Made by a program: the position numbers and the translations under genes. A stretch of DNA of 21,529 nt from a virus, in IMG/VR virus record IMGVR_UViG_3300009183_003363, positions 1 through 21,529 of that record, one strand, 5' to 3'. Below the pieces are notes generated by a model, which saw only the letters and a program-made list of their open reading frames with translations, did not search any database and was not told the DNA's origin. Of this stretch, positions 32 to 21,529 are shown in pieces. Every line of letters starts with the position of its first letter. The first letter of the stretch is position 1.

Positions 32-955
32 TTATGTTAGTTCTCCTTTTAAATGCTTAATTAAATCCTGCACATATATTCCATCTAATGATGATTCTAA
101 TCGCGGAACACAACACCCTCGTAGTGTATTGTACACCTCTTGATTAAATCCTAATAATCGTTCAAACCCGTGTGTTTTTTTCCTAACTTTAATTTCCGGA
201 TATAATTTTTTTAATATTGCATTTTTACTACTAACAGATGTTAGTTTATAATTAAATTTGTTATTTACCAGCTGTTGAATGTCATTATTAGTTAAATAAT
301 ATAGCATCATTTCAGGGGTATAGCTAAACCATTCATTAACTAATAATATATTATATTTTTCGCTGAACCTAATTGCACTCGCATCTTCATTTTCTCTAAA
401 ACAATGAAACCAGACCGAATCATTATTTGGAAATACTTGTCTTTTTAAAAATTGTTCTCCTCCCATTACTGCAGGAAATCCTAATTTTTTAATATGGTAG
501 TACACCAATAAATAGGTAATTTGTGTACACCCAATTTCTATTGCAAATTCTTCTGCCTCACCTGAGTTATAAAAATTTTTTACATCAAATTCAATAATAT
601 CTAACTTAACATCTAGTAACGTGGTAAGTTCAATTGCCTCACTAACATCATCTATATTGTAATCATCTTTGAATTTTACAATAACACATCTAGGTTTAAA
701 TCCAATCTCTAAAAAATTTCGTAATACAATTTCACTATCTGTTCCACCACTTAGCAAAAGTATCAATTCTCGTCCTGCTTCTCTTAATACTATATCTGCC
801 GTTTTACAAAGTTCTTCACGCCAACTGCTGGTGCGATATACATCCATGTCTGCTTTTCCGGTATATACTTTAAATTTTTCATAAGGTGTGTTTCTATGCC
901 CAAATTTGCGTGAACCTATAGTATAATACAAATGGTTGTCTTTAGTATAATTCAT
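32..955 (-). CDS. PP-loop ATP pyrophosphatase (asparagine-synthase-like domain)
   Basis: The 307-residue protein carries the P-loop signature SGGTDS at residues 69-74, after a hydrophobic beta strand (LILLL). This is the ATP-binding loop of N-type ATP pyrophosphatases, which adenylate a carboxylate or carbonyl and then pass it to an amine or thiol; asparagine synthase C-domains, QueC and related enzymes belong here. No N-terminal glutaminase domain is present, so ammonia or an amine would come from elsewhere. The start is fixed by a 4-base ATGA overlap with the acyl carrier protein gene upstream, so the two are translationally coupled and probably act in one pathway. The substrate cannot be read from the sequence. 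A tRNA-modifying PP-loop enzyme is the main alternative, but the carrier-protein partner argues for small-molecule amide or thioester chemistry. Confidence 0.8.
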   Translation of the reverse strand: MNYTKDNHLYYTIGSRKFGHRNTPYEKFKVYTGKADMDVYRTSSWREELCKTADIVLREAGRELILLLSGGTDSEIVLRNFLEIGFKPRCVIVKFKDDYNIDDVSEAIELTTLLDVKLDIIEFDVKNFYNSGEAEEFAIEIGCTQITYLLVYYHIKKLGFPAVMGGEQFLKRQVFPNNDSVWFHCFRENEDASAIRFSEKYNILLVNEWFSYTPEMMLYYLTNNDIQQLVNNKFNYKLTSVSSKNAILKKLYPEIKVRKKTHGFERLLGFNQEVYNTLRGCCVPRLESSLDGIYVQDLIKHLKGELT

Positions 956-1188
956 TCTATTAAATTAATTAAATCTCGAATGGTAATAATAGCACTACGT
1001 GGCTCGTTTAACACTGTATTTGAATATTCTTCATACATTATTTGCAATTCAATAATATCTAAACTATCTAGATCAATACTCTGTAATATAGTATCTTCGG
1101 TTAGTATTATATTAGATAAGTGGGGATTATCTTTATAAATAAACTGTGATAATATATTTAATTTCTCTTGTCTACTGCTAATTTCCAT
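952..1188 (-). CDS. Acyl carrier protein
   Basis: A 78-residue acidic helical protein with the phosphopantetheine-attachment motif DLDSLDIIEL; the Ser after the second Asp is the modified residue. Length and four-helix pattern match free-standing acyl or peptidyl carrier proteins. The reading frame stays open to an ATG at 1200, but I prefer the ATG at 1188 because a GGAG Shine-Dalgarno lies 6 bases upstream of it. It would hold an acyl or aminoacyl group as a thioester for enzymes encoded nearby. The stop overlaps the start of the PP-loop gene (ATGA). No phosphopantetheinyl transferase is seen, so a host enzyme would have to activate it. It is too small and isolated to be part of an NRPS or PKS module. 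Confidence 0.85.
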   Translation of the reverse strand: MEISSRQEKLNILSQFIYKDNPHLSNIILTEDTILQSIDLDSLDIIELQIMYEEYSNTVLNEPRSAIITIRDLINLIE

Positions 1189-1194
1189 TTTTAA

Positions 1195-1198
1195 CTCC
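1195..1198 (-). promoter_or_regulatory. Shine-Dalgarno deciding the carrier-protein start
   Basis: GGAG followed by 6 bases and ATG at 1188. It overlaps the upstream in-frame ATG at 1200, which has no comparable site, so the shorter 78-residue product is favoured. Confidence 0.5.
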
Positions 1199-1268
1199 AT
1201 ATTAAATATTGGAAGACTTTGGAATTCTTCAATATTAAAACTTTCGGGACATATAAAAGCATTGGCTA

Positions 1269-1283: not shown

Positions 1284-1817
1284 TTATTTTTTTTCTCTTT
1301 GGTATTCTAATACATATTGTAATGTATTATTTATAATTTTTTGACCAATAGGTTTAAAATTCTTATAAATATCTGGCCAGTTTCCGATCTCGTTTTGTGT
1401 TTCATTTCTAACCAGCCACTTGTACATTATCTTGTTATGTTCGTTGCAAGTACCCCAAACTTTCTCAAAAGACATGGTTTCTTGAATCATTATGGGTAAT
1501 ATTGAATTACCAACGATATATTTTGCTCGCATTTCAGGGGCAATAAACATACGAGAAAGAACTAAAGCAACATCGGGAATAGGTTTATAAGGATGCCACC
1601 CGGCACTGCATACATACTTTTCGTTATCGTCTACTACATAGTATGCTCCATCTTTATATCTACCATTCTTCAGCAGGTAAAATATATTAGCCGGATTGTC
1701 GCTCAAGTCCGGATGATAATTTGCAATTATATTTGTATCTGTGATTTTATTAAATCCCTTTTGTAAAATATTAATAACATAGGCGTTAGATAAATCATGT
1801 ATGGTGTGAATCTTCAT
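1284..1817 (-). CDS. GNAT-like acetyltransferase (tentative)
   Basis: 177 residues. The central stretch LSRMFIAPEMRAKYIVGNSILP resembles GNAT motif A, where a beta strand with a conserved pattern precedes the acetyl-CoA pyrophosphate loop, and the later KVWGTCNEHNKIMYKWL resembles the motif B helix (N..M..WL). The glycine-rich Q/RxxGxG/A loop is degenerate, so enzymatic activity is uncertain. The ATG at 1817 has no clear Shine-Dalgarno; a TATAAT at 1846-1851 lies about 29 bases upstream. It may belong to the same pathway as the methyltransferase gene that precedes it in transcription order. A non-catalytic GNAT fold or an unrelated phage protein remains possible. Confidence 0.45.
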   Translation of the reverse strand: MKIHTIHDLSNAYVINILQKGFNKITDTNIIANYHPDLSDNPANIFYLLKNGRYKDGAYYVVDDNEKYVCSAGWHPYKPIPDVALVLSRMFIAPEMRAKYIVGNSILPIMIQETMSFEKVWGTCNEHNKIMYKWLVRNETQNEIGNWPDIYKNFKPIGQKIINNTLQYVLEYQREKK

Positions 1818-1860: not shown

Positions 1861-2400
1861 TTAACTAATTCTAGACCACTCTGCATATAATCGTCTACCA
1901 TCTTGTTCCCAACAACATTCAACTAATTTAAATTTAAACTTAGTACTTAGACGAATATGCTCCTCAATGCTCCAGGGATAAAATTCAATTTGGTCACAGC
2001 CTGAATCAGGATGATCATTTTTTCCTGGATTACAACGCCAATAAATCCTGCATTGCAGGTTTAACAAATCAACAACTTTTTTTATTTGCCTTTCAATGTC
2101 TACTACATTACCAAAATTAATACTACCTAGACATAGTGCCACATCAAATTTTTTGTCAGTGACAAAATCATCTATGGTACATTTGTGATCCGCTTGATCA
2201 AAGGCTGGATCTATCCCGGTTAAATTTGGAATAACGCCCTTAAAGGGATTTGTACCGCACCCCACATCTATAACTGTTTCATGGATGCCTATCTTGTCAA
2301 TAAGTTGTAATCCTGATTTAGTATTCTTCTTGCAAGGGTCGCTATTTGTGTGCCAAATGTTTCCAAAGTATTGATTGAGATAATTTTGATCGACTGGCAT
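1861..2400 (-). CDS. Class I SAM-dependent methyltransferase
   Basis: 179 residues. Motif I is VIDVGCGTNPF at about residues 43-53, the Asp at the end of beta 2 is in GID (64), and the motif IV region FDVALCLGSINF lies at 85-96. These define the SAM-binding Rossmann fold of class I methyltransferases. The late stretch FYPWSIEEHIRL and a C-terminal beta hairpin complete the fold. The substrate is unknown. It is transcribed divergently from the sulfotransferase-like gene, 30 bases away, and lies in the same direction as the GNAT-like and carrier-protein genes. Phages use such enzymes for DNA, capsid or small-molecule methylation; no DNA-methylase NPPY motif is present, so DNA methylation is unlikely. 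Confidence 0.8.
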   Translation of the reverse strand: MPVDQNYLNQYFGNIWHTNSDPCKKNTKSGLQLIDKIGIHETVIDVGCGTNPFKGVIPNLTGIDPAFDQADHKCTIDDFVTDKKFDVALCLGSINFGNVVDIERQIKKVVDLLNLQCRIYWRCNPGKNDHPDSGCDQIEFYPWSIEEHIRLSTKFKFKLVECCWEQDGRRLYAEWSRIS

Positions 2401-2430: not shown

Positions 2431-3027
2431 ATGCTACCTAATAGAATATTTTTTACAGGAGTTCCGGGAAGTCGCTGGAGTGGTATTGCTCAAATCATAG
2501 AGTCTCTAGACAATGTTAATATTAGCGACCGAACTCCCGAGCGTACATATAATCACGGACAATACAGTGGTCATTGTGGCGCCTATTTTGGACTAGGCAT
2601 GGAACTAGAAGCCTATCTAGATGGGCCGTATATTGACAAGGCCTGGACTAACTTAAGTGGTACTAGAATAATCAAAAGCCATGACTGGGCTTATATGTTA
2701 GATTTAGTTAAAGAAAAATTTCCCGACGATTGGATTATGTTAGTATACAGACCTGATATGGCTAGTTATGCCTGGTGGCATGAGGCCGGAGGATTTAAAA
2801 TTAAGTATCCAAACTATATAGCTTACAAAGATAGTACAACAATGTTAGGTGAGATAGCAAAGCAGAATACTGCTATTCTACAATTTGCCCACGATAATAA
2901 TCTAACATGGAATTATTTTACACAAGAATGGATTGCCAAACACTTTGAACAGGATATTGACATGAAAAAAACTTATCCTGATATTTTAGTTACAATATTA
3001 AATAGGAGAAACAATGAAAGTAGTTAA
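2431..3027 (+). CDS. Sulfotransferase-like P-loop protein
   Basis: 198 residues. The N-terminus FFTGVPGSRWSGIAQII (7-23) matches the 5'-phosphosulfate loop of sulfotransferases, where a beta strand leads into a PxSGTTW-like P-loop. RIIKSHDW (79-86) resembles the strand carrying the catalytic K-x-H region, and VYRPDMASYAWWH (105-117) resembles the 3'-phosphate-binding R...S motif. Such enzymes move a sulfuryl group from PAPS to a hydroxyl or amine. It is shorter than the usual 250-300 residues, so it may be a minimal member. No good Shine-Dalgarno is visible. Its 3' end overlaps the TctC gene by 14 bases, so the two plus-strand genes form one unit. Confidence 0.65.
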   Translation: MLPNRIFFTGVPGSRWSGIAQIIESLDNVNISDRTPERTYNHGQYSGHCGAYFGLGMELEAYLDGPYIDKAWTNLSGTRIIKSHDWAYMLDLVKEKFPDDWIMLVYRPDMASYAWWHEAGGFKIKYPNYIAYKDSTTMLGEIAKQNTAILQFAHDNNLTWNYFTQEWIAKHFEQDIDMKKTYPDILVTILNRRNNESS

Positions 3028-3976
3028 ATTTTTAGCAGTAGTATTATTGTCATTTTCGGCTCATGCTTGGGAGCCAACAAAGCCGATAACCGCAGTAATC
3101 GGCTTTGCCCCGGGATCTGGTAATGAATTAAGTTTTAGAGGATTTAGCAGTTTAATTGAAAAAGTTAATCCTAAAATTAATTTCATCGTAGAGAATAAAC
3201 CCGGAGGGGATGGCACAATTGGAATGAACCATTTTATAAAACTACCCAATGATGGGTATCATATATACATTGCTAGTCACCAAGGTACATGGGTAACTTC
3301 TGACTATGTTAATCCTGAAATTAAAAAATATACATTAGCTGACTTTGAATATGGATTAACGTTGGCAAAAAGTCCGTTGGCTATTATTGCACACGAAAGT
3401 AGTCCAACTAATACTCCCAAAGAATTTATAGATCGTATGAAAAATTCTACCACTCCTATTAGCATTGCTGCTGGTAGCGGGGCACATAAACTTGCATATG
3501 AATATATGATGTATCATATCAAAGGAAACAAATCTTTAATTAAAACAATTCCTTATAAGGGACCTGCACAAGCAGGGCAAGATGTTGCAGGTAATCATTT
3601 AGAATTTGGTATTATTCCGGTAACTGTTGCTAATGTATTAGTTAAATCCGACAAAGTTAAAATTATTGCACTGACTAGTGAATATAAACTAGAGGGTCTT
3701 AAAGATGTGCCTTTGATGAAAGACTATGTTCCCGGCATGAATGTATATGCTGCCTGGGGAATTGTATTTCCTAAAGGAACACCCAAGGAAATTATTGATT
3801 GGTATGTTGTGCAGTTTAGAAACGCTATTAACAGTCCGTTCGGTAAACAATTTATCAAAGACAATTTAATGTTCGCAGAACCCAAAGAGCAAGATCCTAA
3901 AGGATTTGAAGCAAGTATGATGGAATTGAGAACTAAATGGATTCCTATTATCAAAGAAGTTGGGTGGAGTAATTAA
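3014..3976 (+). CDS. TctC/Bug family periplasmic solute-binding protein
   Basis: 320 residues. A Sec signal peptide is visible (positively charged start, hydrophobic core, AHA cleavage site near residue 18). The mature protein shows Bug hallmarks: ENKPGGDGTIG, then PNDGYHIYIAS, a central SIAAGSGAHKLAYEY ligand loop, YKGPAQAGQDVAGNHLEFG, and the C-terminal GIVFPKGTPKEIIDWY block. Bug proteins bind carboxylated metabolites in the periplasm for tripartite tricarboxylate transporters (TctABC) or as sensors. No TctA or TctB membrane subunit is encoded here, so it would have to load host transporters. The start is supported by AGGAG seven bases upstream of ATG. Full length with no frameshift, so it is likely functional. 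It is an unusual phage cargo gene and points to a proteobacterial, probably Burkholderiales, origin. Confidence 0.9.
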   Translation: MKVVKFLAVVLLSFSAHAWEPTKPITAVIGFAPGSGNELSFRGFSSLIEKVNPKINFIVENKPGGDGTIGMNHFIKLPNDGYHIYIASHQGTWVTSDYVNPEIKKYTLADFEYGLTLAKSPLAIIAHESSPTNTPKEFIDRMKNSTTPISIAAGSGAHKLAYEYMMYHIKGNKSLIKTIPYKGPAQAGQDVAGNHLEFGIIPVTVANVLVKSDKVKIIALTSEYKLEGLKDVPLMKDYVPGMNVYAAWGIVFPKGTPKEIIDWYVVQFRNAINSPFGKQFIKDNLMFAEPKEQDPKGFEASMMELRTKWIPIIKEVGWSN

Positions 3977-5915: not shown

Positions 5916-6886
5916 TGTTTTGTTTTAGTAGTTAAAAGATCATGAAAGCACTCGCAGGTAACTTTATTACAAATAACTGCATTATTAGAAAAATTATACT
6001 TAAGATCGTCAACATGACCAATCGGGCCAGTGACTCCGCATACCGATCTGTTAATAGTCTGGAAGTTAATGTCTAAGAAATCTTTTCCTACCTGACATTC
6101 CCATCCTAAAAATTTATTCCATTCATTTTTCATAAGGTGTTGAACGTTAATATTTTTTGTAATTCCTAAATTATTAGTTACTAATAATTCAGCACCTAAC
6201 CGTAACTTATTTGGGATAGGGGATTTTTTTTTAATATTTGTTAGTATTCCAGGTTTATAACTAGCGTGTTTAATAATAGATAGTTCTTCCTCTGAGTATA
6301 AATCATATATATCATATTCGTTAATATTCATTCCTTTAATATCAATTATTCCACCAGTGTTGTTTATTAAATAATTAAATGCGTTAATTGCTTGAGGAAT
6401 ATTATCTTTAGTATGTGTAACTTCACATACTGTTTCAGTTTCAAAATTAAGAAATAAATTCATTATATCAGCAATATTATTATAATCAACCGTTTGTTCA
6501 GCATGATATGTCAATGCTAGACGAGTTAGTATATTATCAATTTTGGCCAATTCTTTCCACCAGCGCATTGTTCTAGAACCATTACTTGCTAATATATTCC
6601 AAGCACCTTTATTTTTTGAATACTGTAATAACTCTATTAAATCAGGATATAATGTAGGTTCACCTCCAGTATAAACAATATAAAAAGGAGTTCCTGCGCA
6701 GGCTTCAACAATTTTATCAACTATCAATTTATACTTTTCTAAGGAAAGCCACCGTTCATTCCCGCTATTATTTCCTTTACTACAAAAACTGCACGAGTAA
6801 TTGCATACATCATGTAGTTTCCAGTTAATTACTTTAAATGGTTGGGGGACTGCTCTTTTAACGTGAATTGGATATACATTATTCAT
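5912..6886 (-). CDS. Radical SAM enzyme with C-terminal Cys cluster
   Basis: 324 residues from the ATG at 6886, chosen over an in-frame ATG at 6910 because it gives the ATGA overlap used repeatedly in this operon. The 4Fe-4S motif CNYSCSFC (Cys 28, 32, 35) coordinates the cluster that cleaves SAM to a 5'-deoxyadenosyl radical. GGEPT (74-78) is the SAM-amino-group motif. The C-terminal third holds five more cysteines (264, 283, 306, 311, 313), suggesting an auxiliary Fe-S cluster as in SPASM or Twitch enzymes that modify peptides or small molecules. It lies between a PLP enzyme and an unknown protein. Substrate unknown; a QueE-like role is less likely because of the length and the C-terminal cysteines. 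Confidence 0.88.
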   Translation of the reverse strand: MNNVYPIHVKRAVPQPFKVINWKLHDVCNYSCSFCSKGNNSGNERWLSLEKYKLIVDKIVEACAGTPFYIVYTGGEPTLYPDLIELLQYSKNKGAWNILASNGSRTMRWWKELAKIDNILTRLALTYHAEQTVDYNNIADIMNLFLNFETETVCEVTHTKDNIPQAINAFNYLINNTGGIIDIKGMNINEYDIYDLYSEEELSIIKHASYKPGILTNIKKKSPIPNKLRLGAELLVTNNLGITKNINVQHLMKNEWNKFLGWECQVGKDFLDINFQTINRSVCGVTGPIGHVDDLKYNFSNNAVICNKVTCECFHDLLTTKTKQ

Positions 6887-7653
6887 AGTTTTAATAGATG
6901 ACTTATGCATAACCGATTGACTGGACCTCGTTTAAAATTTACATATTTCGTAGAGTAATCTAATCCAAATATTATGGTGTTAGACGGGGTAATATTAAAT
7001 TCTTGACAAATCTCTAATTGAGAATCTTTATATTTTTGTATCATTGAGTCCGGAGACATTGTATCTAATAACGTATAATGGTGCTCGGCACAGGCTACTA
7101 GTGGATAATGCCATTGCGAATATACGGTTACTGGATACGGGTCTATGGTATACAATAATCCAACTCTATGTAACCCTGTGCCAAAAGATTTAGATAATGA
7201 AAAGCAAACACTGTGTATATTTTTATACCTAGCAAAATCAAAATCTATATCGTGACATACTCCAAAAAAAGCACAGTCAATAAATATGGGTTTATTATGA
7301 GAATCTGCAATTTTAATTTTTTCATGTGAACTCATCCCGTCAGCACTAAATGGATGACTTACTACTATTGCATCTGCTTCGTCTAAATTAAAAGTAACAC
7401 GATTTTTAATAACCAACGAATGATAGCCATATTCACCTTCAAATATTCCTATCTTATTATACATTCCATACATTTGATTAAATGCATCAGTAACACCTGA
7501 TACAATATAATATGATTTGGGCAATCCTTTTACTAGTTGATTGGATGAGTGAACCCATTTATTAAATTTTTCTTTAAATTTAATAAATTGAGATATATCT
7601 ACTGATTCTGGCTCTATTGCAATTGCTGCATTTGTTATTTTATCAAATCTCAT
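6883..7653 (-). CDS. Compact fold-type-I PLP enzyme (aminotransferase-like)
   Basis: 256 residues. The Schiff-base region FSLSKSFGTGLHRVG (151-165) holds the PLP-binding Lys155 and the following Arg, exactly as in class I/II aminotransferases (SxSKxxGxxGxRxG). FIDCAFFG (124-131) carries the Asp (126) that contacts the pyridine nitrogen; VSGVTDAF (51-58) corresponds to the phosphate-cup helix start; EYGYH matches the aromatic stacking segment. The enzyme is about 100-150 residues shorter than typical relatives: the N-terminal arm and much of the C-terminal small domain are reduced, although RLCIS near the end may preserve the carboxylate-binding Arg. It is likely to transaminate or otherwise transform an amino-acid-like intermediate in this pathway. 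Overlaps both neighbours by ATGA. Confidence 0.82.
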   Translation of the reverse strand: MRFDKITNAAIAIEPESVDISQFIKFKEKFNKWVHSSNQLVKGLPKSYYIVSGVTDAFNQMYGMYNKIGIFEGEYGYHSLVIKNRVTFNLDEADAIVVSHPFSADGMSSHEKIKIADSHNKPIFIDCAFFGVCHDIDFDFARYKNIHSVCFSLSKSFGTGLHRVGLLYTIDPYPVTVYSQWHYPLVACAEHHYTLLDTMSPDSMIQKYKDSQLEICQEFNITPSNTIIFGLDYSTKYVNFKRGPVNRLCISHLLKL

Positions 7654-8129
7654 ACTACTATACCAATTAAATGTAATCTAGGTTTATTAGAACAATTCAT
7701 AAACGTATGTAAGTTAACTGTGTTAGTCCAATATACTAAGCCTGCATGCATATGTTGAATAATTCCCTGTTTAAAAACAAAATAACATTCTGGATTAGTA
7801 ATCATAGGAATATGGATCCGAGGGGTAGAATCTTTGTGCATACTATAACAGGACCAGGGACTTAGCCACATAAGTCTAGTTCTAAATAAATTATACTTAT
7901 TAATTACTTCTTCAAATACAGTATCTTTAAAAATTGGGTTTAGATTAGTATATATTAGTTCATCACCCTTGCTCGTTCCAACAGCACTAGCCCACGGATC
8001 TTCTAGATCCTTAAATTGTAGCCCGACTTGTTTCTTGCTGCCGTAATCTGTCCATATAAGATTTTTTTCAATCTTAAAATAGCAGTCTAATATCTCAGTA
8101 ATAGGACATGTTTCAATAATCTTTATCAT
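7650..8129 (-). CDS. 2-oxoglutarate/Fe(II) dioxygenase, Asp/Asn beta-hydroxylase-like
   Basis: 159 residues. The double-stranded beta-helix signature is visible: HKD (98-100) as the HxD iron ligands, a distal His141 (NLHTF) and Arg151 (KPRLHL) ten residues later for the 2-oxoglutarate carboxylate. The segment RIHIPMITNPECYFVF and WTNTVNLHTFMN matches aspartyl/asparaginyl beta-hydroxylase-like oxygenases. It would hydroxylate an amino-acid side chain or small molecule using oxygen and 2-oxoglutarate. ATGA overlaps with the radical SAM gene upstream and the PLP enzyme gene downstream tie it to the operon. Family assignment is strong, substrate unknown. Confidence 0.82.
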   Translation of the reverse strand: MIKIIETCPITEILDCYFKIEKNLIWTDYGSKKQVGLQFKDLEDPWASAVGTSKGDELIYTNLNPIFKDTVFEEVINKYNLFRTRLMWLSPWSCYSMHKDSTPRIHIPMITNPECYFVFKQGIIQHMHAGLVYWTNTVNLHTFMNCSNKPRLHLIGIVV

Positions 8130-9670
8130 ACAGTATTTACTTTGACAATTTCAGCATCACGTTTTAACATAGTTAACAAATTTGGAAAATATTCAGTAGT
8201 TGGATCTTTGATAATATTTGTTTCTGAATAGTGTCTACGAAAATTATTTACAGTGGATAATTTTATTTTATTTTGTATATTAGTATTTAATGCTTTCGCT
8301 ATTGCATTTGATTGAATAAAACTTGTTATGTCAGAATCATCATTTTTAGTCCACTGTCCAATATGCATATTTTCTTTTGTAATTACATATCCGTATTTTT
8401 CATATGATCTTTCTAGTTCACTTGTAGGTTTATTTGGGTAAAGTTCCGGTGGGGTTATAATTAACGGGAAATAAAATATATCATGAACCGGGCAGTCTGG
8501 TTGCATAAACCAAGCATGACTCTTACATATATCTGCATAGGCTTCATGCGGGAGTCCAATAATATATCCTCCCTGAACACGTACCTGATCTCCCCATATT
8601 TTTTGTACATGATATAAAGCCTGTTTACGTTTTTCTGAATCCATACCTTTACCAATTACCTTAGCACTTTTGGGATGAAAAGTTTCAATACCAACGAATA
8701 CTGTGTTTACACCAATATCTAATAACAATTGCGCTTGTTCTGGATGCGTTACTATTAGATCAATACGTATATAACATCTAAATTTTGGTTTAAACGGTAA
8801 TAGCTTTACAACTTCAGCTACGCATTTTAATTTTTCAGTTGAATCATTAAAAGTGTCATCTGCTATCCAATAATCCGTAATTCCCCATTTTGTGTAATTA
8901 TCTAATAGTTCTGTATAAAGCGACTTTGATTCTTTGACATATTTTGCTATATCTTTTTTTCCTATTAACGGCCATGCACAAAATAAACAGGAAAACCGAC
9001 AGCCCCGCGCAATTTCTATAGTCATTAGTTCATCACTACGAATTTGATCATATTTAGTATAACTTGTAAAACTTTCTACCCATCCCCAGTTTTTACTCTC
9101 AGCAGAGCTATCATGATTAATTAAAGTATTCCAAATACGCTTTGGTTGTTGTAAAAAATCTAATATCTGCACCTCGCCATATCCTGCCATGAAATGATCC
9201 GCTGGAAAATCTGCATACCAATCTATTTTAACACCTCCTAGAAGTATTTTAGTTTTTGAATTGTATTTTTTTACAAGATCAACCCAAGGCTTTGCTTTGC
9301 CTAAGAATGCAGATTCGGTGAGTGTGTTCTGACCATTGTTCCCAAACATTGCTCTAACCCGACGCACCTCTTCAGGGTCATGCGATCCATTAGAGGGAAT
9401 AGGAAGTTGATTGCCTGTTTTATTTCTATAAGGCCACCAGCTAGAGCTAAAACCCACAAATCTAGTATCGGGACCTATTGAGACCTTAAGAATTTCTTCC
9501 CAGATATGGATATTAAGTGCCGAAGAAAAATCAATTACTAATACCGAATATCCGTTTTCTCTAAGATGTGTAGCTATTCTGTGTGCGCCGTGTCCTCTGA
9601 CCCATTCTGGATAGTCTGAGGTATCGTTGACAATTATTGCATTAAAGTTATTAGTAGGTACGTTTATCAT
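8126..9670 (-). CDS. B12-binding-domain radical SAM protein
   Basis: 514 residues. The first about 190 residues look like a cobalamin-binding Rossmann domain of the BATS group (WVRGHGAHRIATHLRENGY, then VLVIDF, FVGFSSSW, ILLGGVKID); the DxHxxG cobalt-ligand motif is not seen, which is common in this group. The radical SAM core begins with EIARGCRFSCLFC (Cys 224, 228, 231), followed by WIADDTFN and VFVGIETF, typical of MiaB/Elp3-like BATS enzymes. Such proteins perform methylations, methylthiolations or ring rearrangements. It starts one base after the preceding stop and ends in an ATGA overlap with the oxygenase gene. Largest enzyme of the operon. Substrate unknown. Confidence 0.88.
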   Translation of the reverse strand: MINVPTNNFNAIIVNDTSDYPEWVRGHGAHRIATHLRENGYSVLVIDFSSALNIHIWEEILKVSIGPDTRFVGFSSSWWPYRNKTGNQLPIPSNGSHDPEEVRRVRAMFGNNGQNTLTESAFLGKAKPWVDLVKKYNSKTKILLGGVKIDWYADFPADHFMAGYGEVQILDFLQQPKRIWNTLINHDSSAESKNWGWVESFTSYTKYDQIRSDELMTIEIARGCRFSCLFCAWPLIGKKDIAKYVKESKSLYTELLDNYTKWGITDYWIADDTFNDSTEKLKCVAEVVKLLPFKPKFRCYIRIDLIVTHPEQAQLLLDIGVNTVFVGIETFHPKSAKVIGKGMDSEKRKQALYHVQKIWGDQVRVQGGYIIGLPHEAYADICKSHAWFMQPDCPVHDIFYFPLIITPPELYPNKPTSELERSYEKYGYVITKENMHIGQWTKNDDSDITSFIQSNAIAKALNTNIQNKIKLSTVNNFRRHYSETNIIKDPTTEYFPNLLTMLKRDAEIVKVNTV

Positions 9671-18025: not shown

Positions 18026-18247
18026 TTATTGCCCTTTAATCTGTTCTCGTTTTTCACGATATTCTTGATATAGTTCAATTTCTTTCATGTTGACTAAATG
18101 TCCTTCAGCAGTAATATGATTTTTCAACATACCCTCACTGAGCCATTGCAATCTTTGTTTGAATTCTTCCAAATTTGCACATTTCATATACTCATATGTA
18201 TTCATGAGTTCTTTTCTTAGTGCTGCTAATTTTTGTTGTTTACTCAT
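18026..18247 (-). CDS. Small helical protein between nrdA and nrdB
   Basis: 73 residues from the ATG at 18247; a TTG at 18265 is in frame but the ATG forms an ATGA overlap with the nrdA stop and has GAGG upstream. The protein is helical and charged (QQKLAALRKELMNTYEYMKCANLEEFKQRLQWLSEGM, then EIELYQEYREKREQ), probably two or three helices or a short coiled coil. I recognise no family. Its place between the two RNR subunit genes, with no gap on either side, suggests co-expression, and it could be an RNR-associated or unrelated small phage protein. Confidence 0.7.
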   Translation of the reverse strand: MSKQQKLAALRKELMNTYEYMKCANLEEFKQRLQWLSEGMLKNHITAEGHLVNMKEIELYQEYREKREQIKGQ

Positions 18248-19332
18248 AATTTGCACGCCTCGCAATTTTCTTCTTCATCAAAATTAATAGGTTCAAGTGG
18301 CATATCAGGTGGAATTTCATCATCTGATTTGCTACCAGCCTTATTAATAAGTGAATAATAAAAGGTCTTGATACCAAAGTAATGTGCCTGCATCAAGTTC
18401 TTTGCTATCAATGTAGTTGGAACTTTTCTGTCAGGAAAATGTTTGGGGTTATAAAAAGTATTTACAGATATAGCCTGATCTACATAAGCTGCTAATACCG
18501 CTGCTGTTTTTAAGTATCCATCACAATCTTTTTGGTCCCACATCAATTGATATTTGTGCTTTAGTTTATGATATTCTGGCACAACTTGAGTAAAACTTCC
18601 TGCTTTAGATTCTTTTACTGATATTAAACTCATGGGAAGTTCAATACCGTTTGTGCTATTGATAACTACACTACTTGATTCTACTGGAGCGATAGCCATT
18701 TGCGTAGCGTTACGGACACCGTGTTCTTTCATCTGTGTACGTAGTGTTTCCCAATCTAATTCTGGAGTAAAGTCTGCTAGTTCATTAACACCGTTGGCAC
18801 GTAGTTCCCAAGGAAAGATACCTTGACCATATCTTGTTTTGTCACTACCTTCACACTTACCACGTTCTTTGGCAAGTTCTACACTAGCTTCAGTTAGGTA
18901 GAATGCTAGATGTTCTGCCCAAGTTTTAACTTCTTGTAGCGCATCTTTCTCTCCATACTTCAACCCACGCTTTGCATGCCAGTATGCTAAGTTAGTAATA
19001 CCAATGCCTAATGGACGAATCTCATCATTAGATAGTTTAGATTGTATGCTTAGGAAGTCTTGATAGTCAAGAATATTATTAAGACTGCGGTGTAAGATAC
19101 GACTGGCGCGGCGCATATCTTCGGGATTTCTGAATGCACCGTAATTCATACTACCTAGTGTGCATAACGCAATGCGTCCTTCTGCATCATCAAGACGTTT
19201 GAATGACTTAGTTGGTAATAGGATCTCACAGTTATGGACAAGGATATTATCTGCAAAAAAGCATTCTGTTTCTGGAACAGATATATCATACACCTCGGTT
19301 GGTTCTACATTTATTTTTTTAATTTTAATCAT
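18244..19332 (-). CDS. nrdA: C-intein plus C-terminal part of ribonucleotide reductase NrdA
   Basis: 362 residues. The first 34 form a C-intein: VYDISVPETECFFADNIL is block F and ILVHN is block G with the penultimate His and terminal Asn; the next residue is Cys, the +1 nucleophile. The extein (from residue 35) starts CEILLPTKSF, contains RIALCTLGSMNYG (the E. coli Cys462 region), KTFYY (radical-transfer tyrosines 730/731) and ends in EACKL, a C-terminal redox Cys pair spaced C-x2-C instead of E. coli C-x4-C. It must be joined to the upstream nrdA piece by protein trans-splicing to give an active large subunit. ATG overlaps the HNH stop (ATGA) with AAGGA upstream. Confidence 0.95.
   Translation of the reverse strand: MIKIKKINVEPTEVYDISVPETECFFADNILVHNCEILLPTKSFKRLDDAEGRIALCTLGSMNYGAFRNPEDMRRASRILHRSLNNILDYQDFLSIQSKLSNDEIRPLGIGITNLAYWHAKRGLKYGEKDALQEVKTWAEHLAFYLTEASVELAKERGKCEGSDKTRYGQGIFPWELRANGVNELADFTPELDWETLRTQMKEHGVRNATQMAIAPVESSSVVINSTNGIELPMSLISVKESKAGSFTQVVPEYHKLKHKYQLMWDQKDCDGYLKTAAVLAAYVDQAISVNTFYNPKHFPDRKVPTTLIAKNLMQAHYFGIKTFYYSLINKAGSKSDDEIPPDMPLEPINFDEEENCEACKL
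19231..19332 (-). other. C-intein (34 residues) of the split NrdA intein
   Basis: The first 34 residues of the downstream nrdA piece, ending ILVHN. The splice junction lies between 19231 and 19230 (Asn followed by TGT Cys). Size and sequence closely resemble known naturally split RNR inteins such as NrdJ-1, whose C-part is about 40 residues and ends NDILVHN. Confidence 0.93.
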
Positions 19333-20264
19333 AATTTAATTCTTCCTTGCACAAATTCTGTATGCTCTTTACAAAATTCTTTTTCATTTATTACTCTGAT
19401 ATTAGTTATTCCGTTGTTATACCAACGATGCTTTGCTGAATGAACCGCGGCATTCTTTCGTTGTTCATCACTTCTATGATAGGGAGAATACTTAATGTCA
19501 AGATTCATATTTATATTTGTCTCAATGATTAAATTTTCCAATGATCCAAATTTATTACCAATCCACGCTAAAGAAATTTTCTTAAATTCAGTAAATTCTG
19601 CTTTCATATTATCTTGTAATAAATTTAATTTAAGATATCCTTCTTGGCATGATTCTGAAACACATTTCCACATTCTTTTTCTTCGGTCTTGCGTCAATTC
19701 TTTGAAGTTAGTGTTTTTGGCACCACTCATGTTTCTTGCGGATTTTCCTGGAATGCCCTTACTATGATGAACCCAATCACCGGATAATACCTTAGGATGG
19801 TCAACTGGAACAGACCCGTGCTTTTCTCTAGTAATAGCATCAACTACTGGCATCATGCCTGTTCTTGCCTTACTAATACAGTTGTTGCCTAGTAGTCTCA
19901 GATGATCCATTTCTTTAAGAAATTTTTCATCAACTTCCGATAGATTAATTTGTCGTTTATGACTACCTGTTGCTTTTACAAAAAAGAATTGCAGGGCAGA
20001 ACCTGATGAGTATTCATATTTAGTTCCTTTGTAAATCTCATACAAGTAGTAATGAGCCATTAAATGTTCAGAGAAAGTCAATAAAATTAAATTCTCCTCA
20101 CTATTTGGATTACCGTCTAAATGTCCCTTTGGGCCTGTTCTTGTTCTGTTCTTATATAGGAAATCAGGAACGATATGGTGTCGCTCATAGTAGGTTCCTT
20201 GATATTTCATTCTGTTTTCTTTTCTTGCGTTGTCAATTAATTTTTTATAAAGTTCTTTATACAT
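19329..20264 (-). CDS. Free-standing HNH homing endonuclease within the split nrdA
   Basis: 311 residues. The HNH motif is YERHHIVPDF (27-35), then N58-LILLTFSEHLMAH (59-71), the spacing of HNH homing enzymes. The C-terminal half holds NUMOD-like DNA-binding segments: SARNMSGAKNTNF, RSDEQRKNAAVHSAKHRWYNNG and NIRVIN. It would cut intein-free nrdA alleles and drive copying of the insertion. It has its own ATG with AAGGAA and is not fused to intein sequence; its stop overlaps the C-intein start. The gene sits where the endonuclease domain of a contiguous intein would be, between N- and C-splicing parts. Full-length and apparently active. Confidence 0.92.
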   Translation of the reverse strand: MYKELYKKLIDNARKENRMKYQGTYYERHHIVPDFLYKNRTRTGPKGHLDGNPNSEENLILLTFSEHLMAHYYLYEIYKGTKYEYSSGSALQFFFVKATGSHKRQINLSEVDEKFLKEMDHLRLLGNNCISKARTGMMPVVDAITREKHGSVPVDHPKVLSGDWVHHSKGIPGKSARNMSGAKNTNFKELTQDRRKRMWKCVSESCQEGYLKLNLLQDNMKAEFTEFKKISLAWIGNKFGSLENLIIETNINMNLDIKYSPYHRSDEQRKNAAVHSAKHRWYNNGITNIRVINEKEFCKEHTEFVQGRIKL

Positions 20265-20296
20265 ATAATTTCCTTATATGTATTTATGCTTGGTAA

Positions 20297-20617
20297 TCAA
20301 ATTTCAACACATAACTCGTCATTTTCTACCAATTCATCTGCTCTTACATAGCCTCTATTCTTAGTGAAAACAAGATGATCTTCTGTACATCTCAACACAT
20401 TACCATTTTCATCTTCAATTTCATATAATGTAGTGACTGTCTTTGTTTTGATTGCGGCAGAAACATTTTCCCAAGAAACTTTACCATTTTTAAAACTTTT
20501 GATTTTTGATGTAGTTAACCCACCTAACTGAAATCTTTCAACTGCACTAGACATAGAAAGTTGTTCAACCGTTCCATTCTCATGCTGGAAAGTAATTTGT
20601 GTATCACCGGTTACACA
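20297..20617 (-). other. N-intein (106 residues) of the split NrdA intein
   Basis: It starts CVTGDTQI (block A, Cys1) and contains block B VLRCTEDHLVFT with the Thr-x-x-His catalytic pair, then TKNRGYVRADELVENDEL. The last stretch is nearly the same as the end of the split NrdJ-1 N-intein as I recall it. The junction is between 20618 (last base of the thiyl-radical Cys codon) and 20617. Length matches split N-inteins of 90-105 residues. Confidence 0.93.
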
Positions 20618-21529
20618 ACAAAGGTTACTCTGGTAAATTGTATGATACTCAGGATCAAATGGTCCTTGATTCATCACATTGTCAATAAACACCAAATAGA
20701 TGCGGCCTGTATCGGTGCGTTCTTTCAGTATGCCCGACTTGAATACTTCTTCGGCACTCATGGTCTTTTTACGTAGTCCTTTTTGCTTTTCATACTTGAC
20801 GTATAGTTCCTCAAACAGTTCAGTATTAGAGTAGAACGCTTGATAGAGATCGGGGACTTCGTTAGGGTCGAAAAAAGTGATATTTTCTTTGTTCTTGAAT
20901 CGTCTCCAGAAGAAAGCACTAAGTACAACTCCATAGTCCATGTGTCTGACACGGGTTTCTTCTGTTCCTTGATTGTTCTTAAGTACGATAAGATCATCAA
21001 ACTGATGATGCCATATAGGATAAAAGACAGTGGCGGATGCATTACGAATGCCACCCTGACTGCAACTACGCAAATCACCAAACCATTTCTTTAAAAATGG
21101 TATCATTCCAGTATGCATGATTTCGCCACCTCTGATAGGACTACCCAATGGGCGTAGTCGTCCAATCTCTAGTCCAATGCCAGCACGTTTGCTAGCATAC
21201 TTGGCCATCATTTCACCAGAAGCGAAAATACTATCCAGGTCATCGTCACTCCGAATAAGTACGCACGAACTGAATTGCTTAGTAGGGGTACCGAGACCAG
21301 CGAGGACAGGAGTAGCAAGGGTAAAAAGTCCGTCAGATGCTGCATTGTAGTATTCCTTTATATAGCGCATTCTAGCATTGTTCGGTTCTTCTTTATGAAA
21401 AACAGTAGCTGCTGCAATCATATAACGAACTTGTGGTGTTTCGTAGATTTCTTTTGTGCTACGATTCTTTACTAGATACTTTTCAATAAGTTGCTCAATG
21501 GCGGCATAACTATAAGTTTCATCCTTAGA
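20297..21529 (-). CDS. nrdA: N-terminal part of ribonucleotide reductase NrdA fused to N-intein, partial at window edge
   Basis: 410 residues are visible; the reading frame runs off the right edge, so the start is not seen and about 150 residues of the cone/ATP region are missing. The extein matches class Ia NrdA: TPTKQFSSCVLI (Cys225 of E. coli), KRAGIGLEIGRLR, GSPIRGGE, SCSQGGIR, RVRHMDYG and finally YQSNLC, whose Cys is the thiyl-radical residue 439. An N-intein follows directly (CVTGDTQITF...). The protein ends KNRGYVRADEL..NDELCVEI and a stop. Alone it lacks half of the catalytic barrel and needs trans-splicing to the downstream piece. Confidence 0.95.
   Translation of the reverse strand, partial: SKDETYSYAAIEQLIEKYLVKNRSTKEIYETPQVRYMIAAATVFHKEEPNNARMRYIKEYYNAASDGLFTLATPVLAGLGTPTKQFSSCVLIRSDDDLDSIFASGEMMAKYASKRAGIGLEIGRLRPLGSPIRGGEIMHTGMIPFLKKWFGDLRSCSQGGIRNASATVFYPIWHHQFDDLIVLKNNQGTEETRVRHMDYGVVLSAFFWRRFKNKENITFFDPNEVPDLYQAFYSNTELFEELYVKYEKQKGLRKKTMSAEEVFKSGILKERTDTGRIYLVFIDNVMNQGPFDPEYHTIYQSNLCCVTGDTQITFQHENGTVEQLSMSSAVERFQLGGLTTSKIKSFKNGKVSWENVSAAIKTKTVTTLYEIEDENGNVLRCTEDHLVFTKNRGYVRADELVENDELCVEI

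Follow-up and report, generated by a model that had tools for sequence, protein, structure and literature searches.

Two overlapping genes on the minus strand of a phage genome fragment, coding for a predicted stand-alone acyl carrier protein (ACP, positions 952-1200) and for a PP-loop enzyme with a predicted asparagine-synthetase fold (positions 32-955), are, as judged by comparison with their relatives, part of a larger conserved cassette, (GNAT-like-1)-(ACP)-PP-loop-GNAT-2-membrane fatty-acyl desaturase, which is cut by the window, the 21,529-base stretch analysed here. The window is a whole virus record and is itself a fragment of a phage genome. Because this record ends just past the stop of the PP-loop gene (base 32), GNAT-2 and the desaturase are missing from it; both would be expected at the cut end (positions 1-31), where the relatives continue with the two genes. 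With a confidence a little short of even, we tentatively read the pair as the left-hand portion of a biosynthetic cassette carried by the phage, in which an acyl group linked to a carrier would be activated, an amide formed and a double bond introduced. The gene identities, fold groups, conserved order and catalytic motifs on which this reading is based were observed, and from them we infer every reaction step.

The ACP is listed with 82 aa, and its start is possibly at Met5, since the N-termini of its relatives are shorter. The codon of Ser46, the expected phosphopantetheine attachment site, lies at 1063-1065 (minus strand) within a DSL motif (residues 45-47) that is kept in all 29 distinct ACPs listed, 23 of these being cassette ACPs. 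When a profile was built from eight other phage ACPs, the window being excluded, the window ACP was the sole match among the 268 ORFs of the window (E 6e-18), and a nine-member phage ACP profile reaches solved ACPs in the PDB (E 6.9e-10). The window ACP alone gave PHROG 5934 'acyl carrier protein' (E 0.0013), TIGR00517 (E 1.1e-4, below the cut-off of that model) and the PDB ACP 2qnw (E 0.0019), and no match to Pfam PF00550 was reported for it. These single-sequence matches are weak but consistent, and the assignment becomes clear with the relatives, so that the gene at 952-1200 is predicted to encode an ACP with an intact DSL serine. As the earlier note had described, it overlaps the PP-loop gene by ATGA, the stop of the one and the start of the other sharing bases 952-955 of the minus strand. 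No phosphopantetheinyl transferase (PF01648) was found in 22 phage records, mostly fragments, and a host enzyme would therefore be needed to arm the ACP. A ThiS/TtuB-like sulfur carrier was considered and rejected, the C-termini of the ACPs being LMK, LMP, LIE and the like and not GG.

To describe the neighbourhood, loci were fetched from viral contigs in three independent ways, 24 by the PP-loop gene, 28 by the ACP and 64 by GNAT-2, and five gene profiles were run on all of them. The 28 ACP loci came from a profile scan; a single-sequence ACP scan of the viral contigs gave none that was confirmed. In the PP-loop-fetched set, which includes a few near-identical contigs (e.g., L011/L012 and L013/L024), GNAT-2 came next in 22 of 22 loci with room and the desaturase was adjacent in 20 of 21, with the ACP upstream in 10 of 23 and GNAT-1 upstream in 16 of 23. 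Among the GNAT-2-fetched loci, the PP-loop gene lay just upstream in 63 of 64, the exception (L078) being without room, and it lay downstream of the ACP in 20 of the 28 ACP-fetched loci. Across 22 whole records, PF00550 had 11 matches, 7 of them over the cut-off, and each of the 11 preceded a PP-loop gene, in ten cases by no more than 8 bases and in one by 604. An example of a complete cassette is that of L008 (ACP 860-1078, PP-loop gene 1075-1992, GNAT-2 1989-2588, desaturase 2604-3395). A tblastn search with the PP-loop, ACP and GNAT-2 proteins against 50,697 phage records returned no relative.

After sub-loci L026-L036 and matches weaker than 1e-90 had been dropped and repeats removed, 56 distinct PP-loop genes were left. 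GNAT-2 follows the PP-loop gene in 54/54 of the distinct copies with room, many of these loci being GNAT-2-selected, and the desaturase is adjacent in 46/49 of those with room on both sides. ACP and PP-loop pairs, which the earlier note had proposed to seek in phages, recur: of the 54 distinct copies with upstream room, 22 have the ACP directly before the PP-loop gene, and 23 have it no further than 1.4 kb upstream. The gap in the 22 directly adjacent copies, measured from the last codon aligned, is -1 to 7 bases. The desaturase is located upstream in fourteen distinct copies, none of them with an ACP. On the PP-loop tree of 54 copies, ACP presence requires 4 changes, versus 17.3 in shuffles, and the window copy clusters with three other ACP-bearing copies (96/95). 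The copy counts together with the tree changes indicate that the ACP, though stably inherited, is optional in the cassette and that the core is made of the PP-loop gene, GNAT-2 and the desaturase. The ACP is not obligatory since it is missing in 13 of 23 PP-loop-fetched loci and was found by profile in none of the 12 bacterial regions described below.

The upstream member of the cassette in the window, GNAT-1 (1284-1817, minus strand, 177 aa), is represented by homologues ahead of the PP-loop gene in 32 of the 54 distinct copies with upstream room. Its assignment as a GNAT protein is weak, Pfam Acetyltransf_1 being matched by 4 of 14 members with a best E of 0.005. For GNAT-2 the same Pfam family was matched by 1 of 18 members (E 0.1), and the predicted structure (pLDDT 78.6) has the GNAT fold, with a Z of 14.6 over 153 residues to 3g8w and acetyltransferases in the rows listed. 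No kinship between GNAT-1 and GNAT-2 was detectable (hhalign probability 0.7). The cassette desaturase matches PF00487 above the cut-off (E 7e-13 and 1.2e-17), with a weak DesA match, and the three His boxes are present in 48 of 48 distinct adjacent desaturases.

The PP-loop enzyme (307 aa) carries the ATP-pyrophosphatase motif SGGTDS at residues 69-74 (734-751, minus strand), which is conserved. The residues S69, G70, G71, D73, S74, G165, G166, E167, E208 and K260 are invariant in the 54 distinct phage relatives. AsnB has an N-terminal glutaminase domain of the Ntn type with an N-terminal Cys. Such a domain is absent from the phage enzyme, which has about 60 residues ahead of the PP-loop, confirming the earlier description of an enzyme lacking a glutaminase domain; its relatives begin with MNF or MNY and have no Cys at position 2. 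In Pfam, QueC is matched by 14 of 23 PP-loop family members, Asn_synthase by 12 and tRNA_Me_trans by 11, with best E values of 1.6e-4 to 4.6e-4, and the NCBIfam matches are likewise mixed, MnmA being among the sequence-profile matches. In hhalign, E. coli AsnB (probability 47.6, versus 26.5 for a QueC-like phage protein, both with E <1e-3) is only slightly favoured. The sequence alone thus places the enzyme in the PP-loop superfamily and does not decide further. MGGE167 pairs with the SGE motif of AsnB in hhalign, and K260 within KKTHGF looks, by eye, like the lysine motif RQKEQF of AsnB, in which the Glu of SGE and the Lys are catalytic. QueC has conserved zinc-binding cysteines, and since no cysteine is found among the invariant or nearly invariant columns of the 23 members, membership in QueC was rejected. 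Distant matches to viral surface-protein chains (E about 0.4-1) were dismissed as chance. Second PP-loop paralogues were seen on cassette contigs L004 (11095-12045), L005 (905-1795) and L007 (3719-4633).

The AlphaFold model of the PP-loop enzyme (pLDDT 93.8, pTM 0.91) supports a closer placement. With VIA-align, ranks 1-12 are taken by human and E. coli asparagine synthetase, beta-lactam synthetase, carbapenam synthetase and TsnB9, with Z of 11.4-15.2 over 237-261 residues (9b6c, 15.2 over 261 residues; 1ct9, 14.6; 1jgt, 14.2; 1q19, 13.7; TsnB9, 11.4). Below rank 12 come LarE (10.2 over 158 residues), NAD synthetase (9.5), TtuA (9.1), TilS and Cap9 (both 8.6) and NcsA (8.4). On the predicted structure, the enzyme therefore groups with the amide- and lactam-forming synthetases, which score above LarE and the tRNA-modifying PP-loop enzymes. 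A clear grouping with tRNA-modifying enzymes, which the earlier note had held up against its own reading, was thus not what we found.

In the pathway that we tentatively propose, a host enzyme would arm the ACP with phosphopantetheine, and the resulting holo-ACP would carry an acyl chain, probably a fatty one. From its fold and motifs, the asparagine-synthetase-like enzyme would turn a carboxylate into an acyl-adenylate and couple an amine or ammonia to it, which it would take directly since it has no glutaminase domain. From their families, the GNAT-fold partners could attach or transfer an acyl group, and the desaturase in the membrane could put a double bond into the chain. These steps would yield an unsaturated acyl amide, such as an altered host lipid or a small molecule resembling a lipid. 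The idea that an ACP-bound group is amidated or otherwise activated had already been put forward from the gene pair; the amide-/lactam-synthetase fold and the recurrent adjacency agree with it, but the reaction itself is inferred only. In a bolder and unlikely form, the virus would carry an assembly line that builds an unsaturated acyl amide on a carrier protein; the glutaminase-less enzyme of asparagine-synthetase fold would act directly on or with the phage ACP, possibly loading it, and the product would remodel host lipids or serve as a diffusible lipid-amide signal or weapon in infection. To our knowledge, there is no precedent for ACP loading by a PP-loop enzyme.

Several of the observations given above could be read otherwise. 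The overlap, or near overlap, of the ACP and PP-loop genes could mean that the PP-loop enzyme is a carrier loader, adenylating a carboxylic acid and passing it to the thiol of holo-ACP as JamA does, with the desaturase then acting on the acyl-ACP. The company of an ACP, a desaturase and one ATP-using activating enzyme, as in JamABC, would suit this as well. The closest folds, however, make amides or lactams and not thioesters, and the PP-loop gene, GNAT-2 and the desaturase occur without an ACP in over half of the distinct copies, although a host ACP could serve there, so that we consider loading doubtful. Even less probable is that the enzyme modifies tRNA or another nucleic acid and that the ACP is an unrelated neighbour. 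MnmA does come second by E-value when the same model is searched with Foldseek, and it is among the sequence-profile matches, but the asparagine-synthetase-type chains at VIA-align ranks 1-12 (Z 11.4-15.2, versus 9.1 for TtuA, 8.6 for TilS and 8.4 for NcsA), the lack of cysteine in invariant or nearly invariant columns and the stable ACP adjacency all argue against it. Since asparagine-synthetase-type folds lead VIA-align, tRNA modification was set aside as the main reading, though the sequence is undecided.

A peptide- or protein-modifying system of the RiPP kind, in which the asparagine-synthetase-like enzyme acts on a peptide or an exported protein and, in phages, the ACP-like protein is the peptide carrier, is brought to mind by the distant PP-loop relative in a YcaO cluster (L040), by several bacterial copies that adjoin ORFs with Tat-like RRxFL starts, and by the lasso cyclases, which belong to the same fold class as the asparagine-synthetase-like enzymes. 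This seems to us rather unlikely, given that reading the ORF lists around the phage cassette by eye turned up no candidate precursor peptide and that the desaturase is adjacent in 46 of the 49 distinct copies with room. It is also quite unlikely that the ACP only reroutes host fatty-acid flux or membrane composition together with the desaturase, while the PP-loop and GNAT proteins do something unconnected: an acyl-CoA desaturase of Lake Baikal viruses is read by its authors as a means of lipid modulation (PMC7678222), but the strict gene order and the association of the PP-loop gene with GNAT-2 in 22 of 22 loci argue for one pathway.

The relation of the pair to the other genes of the window bears on a further possibility. 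The ACP and PP-loop genes belong to a longer run of genes on one strand, which starts at base 2400 with a methyltransferase-like gene (1861-2400, minus strand, Methyltransf_23 E 0.012), which is not among the conserved clusters of the relatives and so lies outside the conserved cassette. The earlier note had given the unit its own candidate promoter, a claim that found no support, since 5 promoter-like sites were found in 900-2500 versus 10.9 expected, and none of them in the 83-base gap upstream of the ACP (1201-1283). It had also suggested that the pair supplies the nearby nine-gene operon (radical SAM, PLP-type and hydroxylase-like genes). The part of this suggestion that stands is weak: in two phage loci an ACP is located beside relatives of operon genes. 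The constant partners of the cassette are, however, other genes, namely the GNAT-like proteins and the desaturase, and the pair belongs to a separate transcription unit, genes on the other strand (2431-3976) lying between its run and the operon. Moreover, only a minority of loci hold homologues of the operon genes, each gene that has any being represented in 2 to 14 loci. Feeding of the operon by the pair is thus improbable in our view. The two loci show another setting of an ACP in phages, beside relatives of radical SAM and PLP-type operon genes. In L060 (1452-4555), an ACP is flanked by relatives of two operon genes, 8126-9670 (28% over 411 aa) and 6883-7653 (22%), and in L058 (2045-4075), one lies beside relatives of two of the nine genes.

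Relatives outside phages were looked for in a scan of 84,980 species genomes, which gave four loci in named assemblies, two of them (L037 and L038) looking like phage contigs in an archaeal MAG. Profile searches of genome samples recovered the PP-loop family from 14 of 240 genomes of the phylum to which the Bdellovibrionota MAG belongs, with up to seven copies per genome, and from 2 of 239 genomes of the phylum of the Kaiserbacteria MAG. Twelve bacterial regions were then fetched from the places of PP-loop matches. Acetyltransferase-like neighbours of the PP-loop gene were noticed by eye in L154, L155, L157 and L158, the one in L158 scoring as an N-acetyltransferase, and desaturases in L154 and L157 match the phage desaturase profile. 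In L039 (5767-9371) and L156 (5194-8654), a PP-loop protein stands in tandem with a second, long one; the long protein of L039 has a C-terminal GNAT match (5.8e-5), and that of L156 is similar. These acetyltransferase-like neighbours, the fusion of PP-loop and GNAT parts and the two desaturases suggest that the core association extends to bacteria, with the ACP being seen only in phages here. The ACP and PP-loop pair that the earlier note had proposed to seek in bacterial clusters was not recovered, no phage-type ACP being labelled in the 12 regions by profile at E 1e-4.

Some bacterial PP-loop copies lie beside ORFs with Tat-like RRxFL or similar starts (L152, 7678-8115; L154, 7950-9305; L157, 6809-7261; L158, 7152-7499). 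In the Kaiserbacteria MAG, a distant PP-loop relative is included in a YcaO cluster (L040, 684-8389; YcaO E 1.3e-49) that also holds, by eye, a nitroreductase-like ORF, two adenylate-forming-looking ORFs and a second PP-loop-like ORF.

The closest known pairing of this kind is that of a discrete ACP with an asparagine synthetase homologue, which is proposed to amidate an ACP-bound acyl group, leading to malonamyl thioesters or starters (PMC7756379). In the glutarimide polyketide clusters (SmdFGH, ChxBCD, LtmHCD, MgsHCD and GdsBCD), an acyltransferase, a stand-alone ACP and an asparagine synthetase homologue are found, and the pair of ACP and synthetase resembles ours. Compared with these clusters, no PKS is seen in the window, GNAT-like proteins stand in place of an acyltransferase domain, the glutaminase domain is lacking and a membrane desaturase is added. 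The terminal-alkyne cassette JamABC (PMC4356899) contains a discrete ACP, a membrane-bound desaturase and the acyl-ACP synthetase JamA. Like the phage set, it is small and portable and joins the first two of these with an activating enzyme that uses ATP. The phage ATP-using enzyme differs from JamA by its predicted asparagine-synthetase fold, and GNAT-like proteins are added. AsnB-like enzymes amidate a free carboxyl in the actinonin and matlystatin pathways (PMC5719088). These enzymes and the hydroxyamidotransferase TsnB9 share the synthetase-domain fold with the phage enzyme (Z 11.4 for TsnB9), but those compared here have about 500 residues or more, whereas the phage enzyme has 307 and no glutaminase domain. 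With no PKS seen and no glutaminase domain, the phage cassette is a member neither of the glutarimide pairs nor of the AsnB-like amidators, and it is not assigned to JamABC.

A fatty-acid desaturase in a phage is reportedly described in a cyanophage paper. Desaturase genes in phages are already known from the Lake Baikal report (PMC7678222). The Pelagibacter phage Mosig also carries a desaturase, with 26.8% identity to that of the cassette; as annotated, it is not surrounded by an ACP/PP-loop/GNAT cassette. An annotated island of similar mix is found in Mosig (L133, 1005-14625), with a radical-SAM-like (MoaA-type) protein, aminotransferases, Asp/Arg hydroxylases, the desaturase, a taurine dioxygenase and an N-acetyltransferase. 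In the literature open without subscription, we found no description of an ACP/PP-loop/GNAT/desaturase cassette, and what appears to be new is carrier-protein amide chemistry in phages with an unusual set of enzymes.

Phage metabolic genes are usually single enzymes of host pathways. The cassette is carried by a group of large environmental phages and occurs in dozens of contigs. If our reading is true, these phages would bring their own small biosynthetic pathway with an amide-forming enzyme, and the PP-loop family, which bacterial neighbourhoods hold as well, would form a new group of amide-forming enzymes. With five genes or fewer, the cassette is directly testable in E. coli.

The record also codes for a ribonucleotide reductase, a glutaredoxin, a PAAR protein and a cell-wall hydrolase. 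The closest matches of NrdB are in Xanthomonas phage X1 (62.7%) and in Stenotrophomonas phages. At 18244-21529 (minus strand), the large subunit of the ribonucleotide reductase is divided between two ORFs that both bear an intein splicing half (PF14890) where the gene is broken, and a separate ORF of 311 aa without Pfam match (19329-20264) sits between them; from these matches, the arrangement resembles a fractured gene with a split intein. A gene for a TctC-type solute-binding receptor is located at 3014-3976 (plus strand, PF03401 E 3.4e-26), with homologues in L003, L023, L025 and L038, and rubrerythrin-like and NifU/IscU-like genes are found in this phage at 11214-12377 (minus strand).
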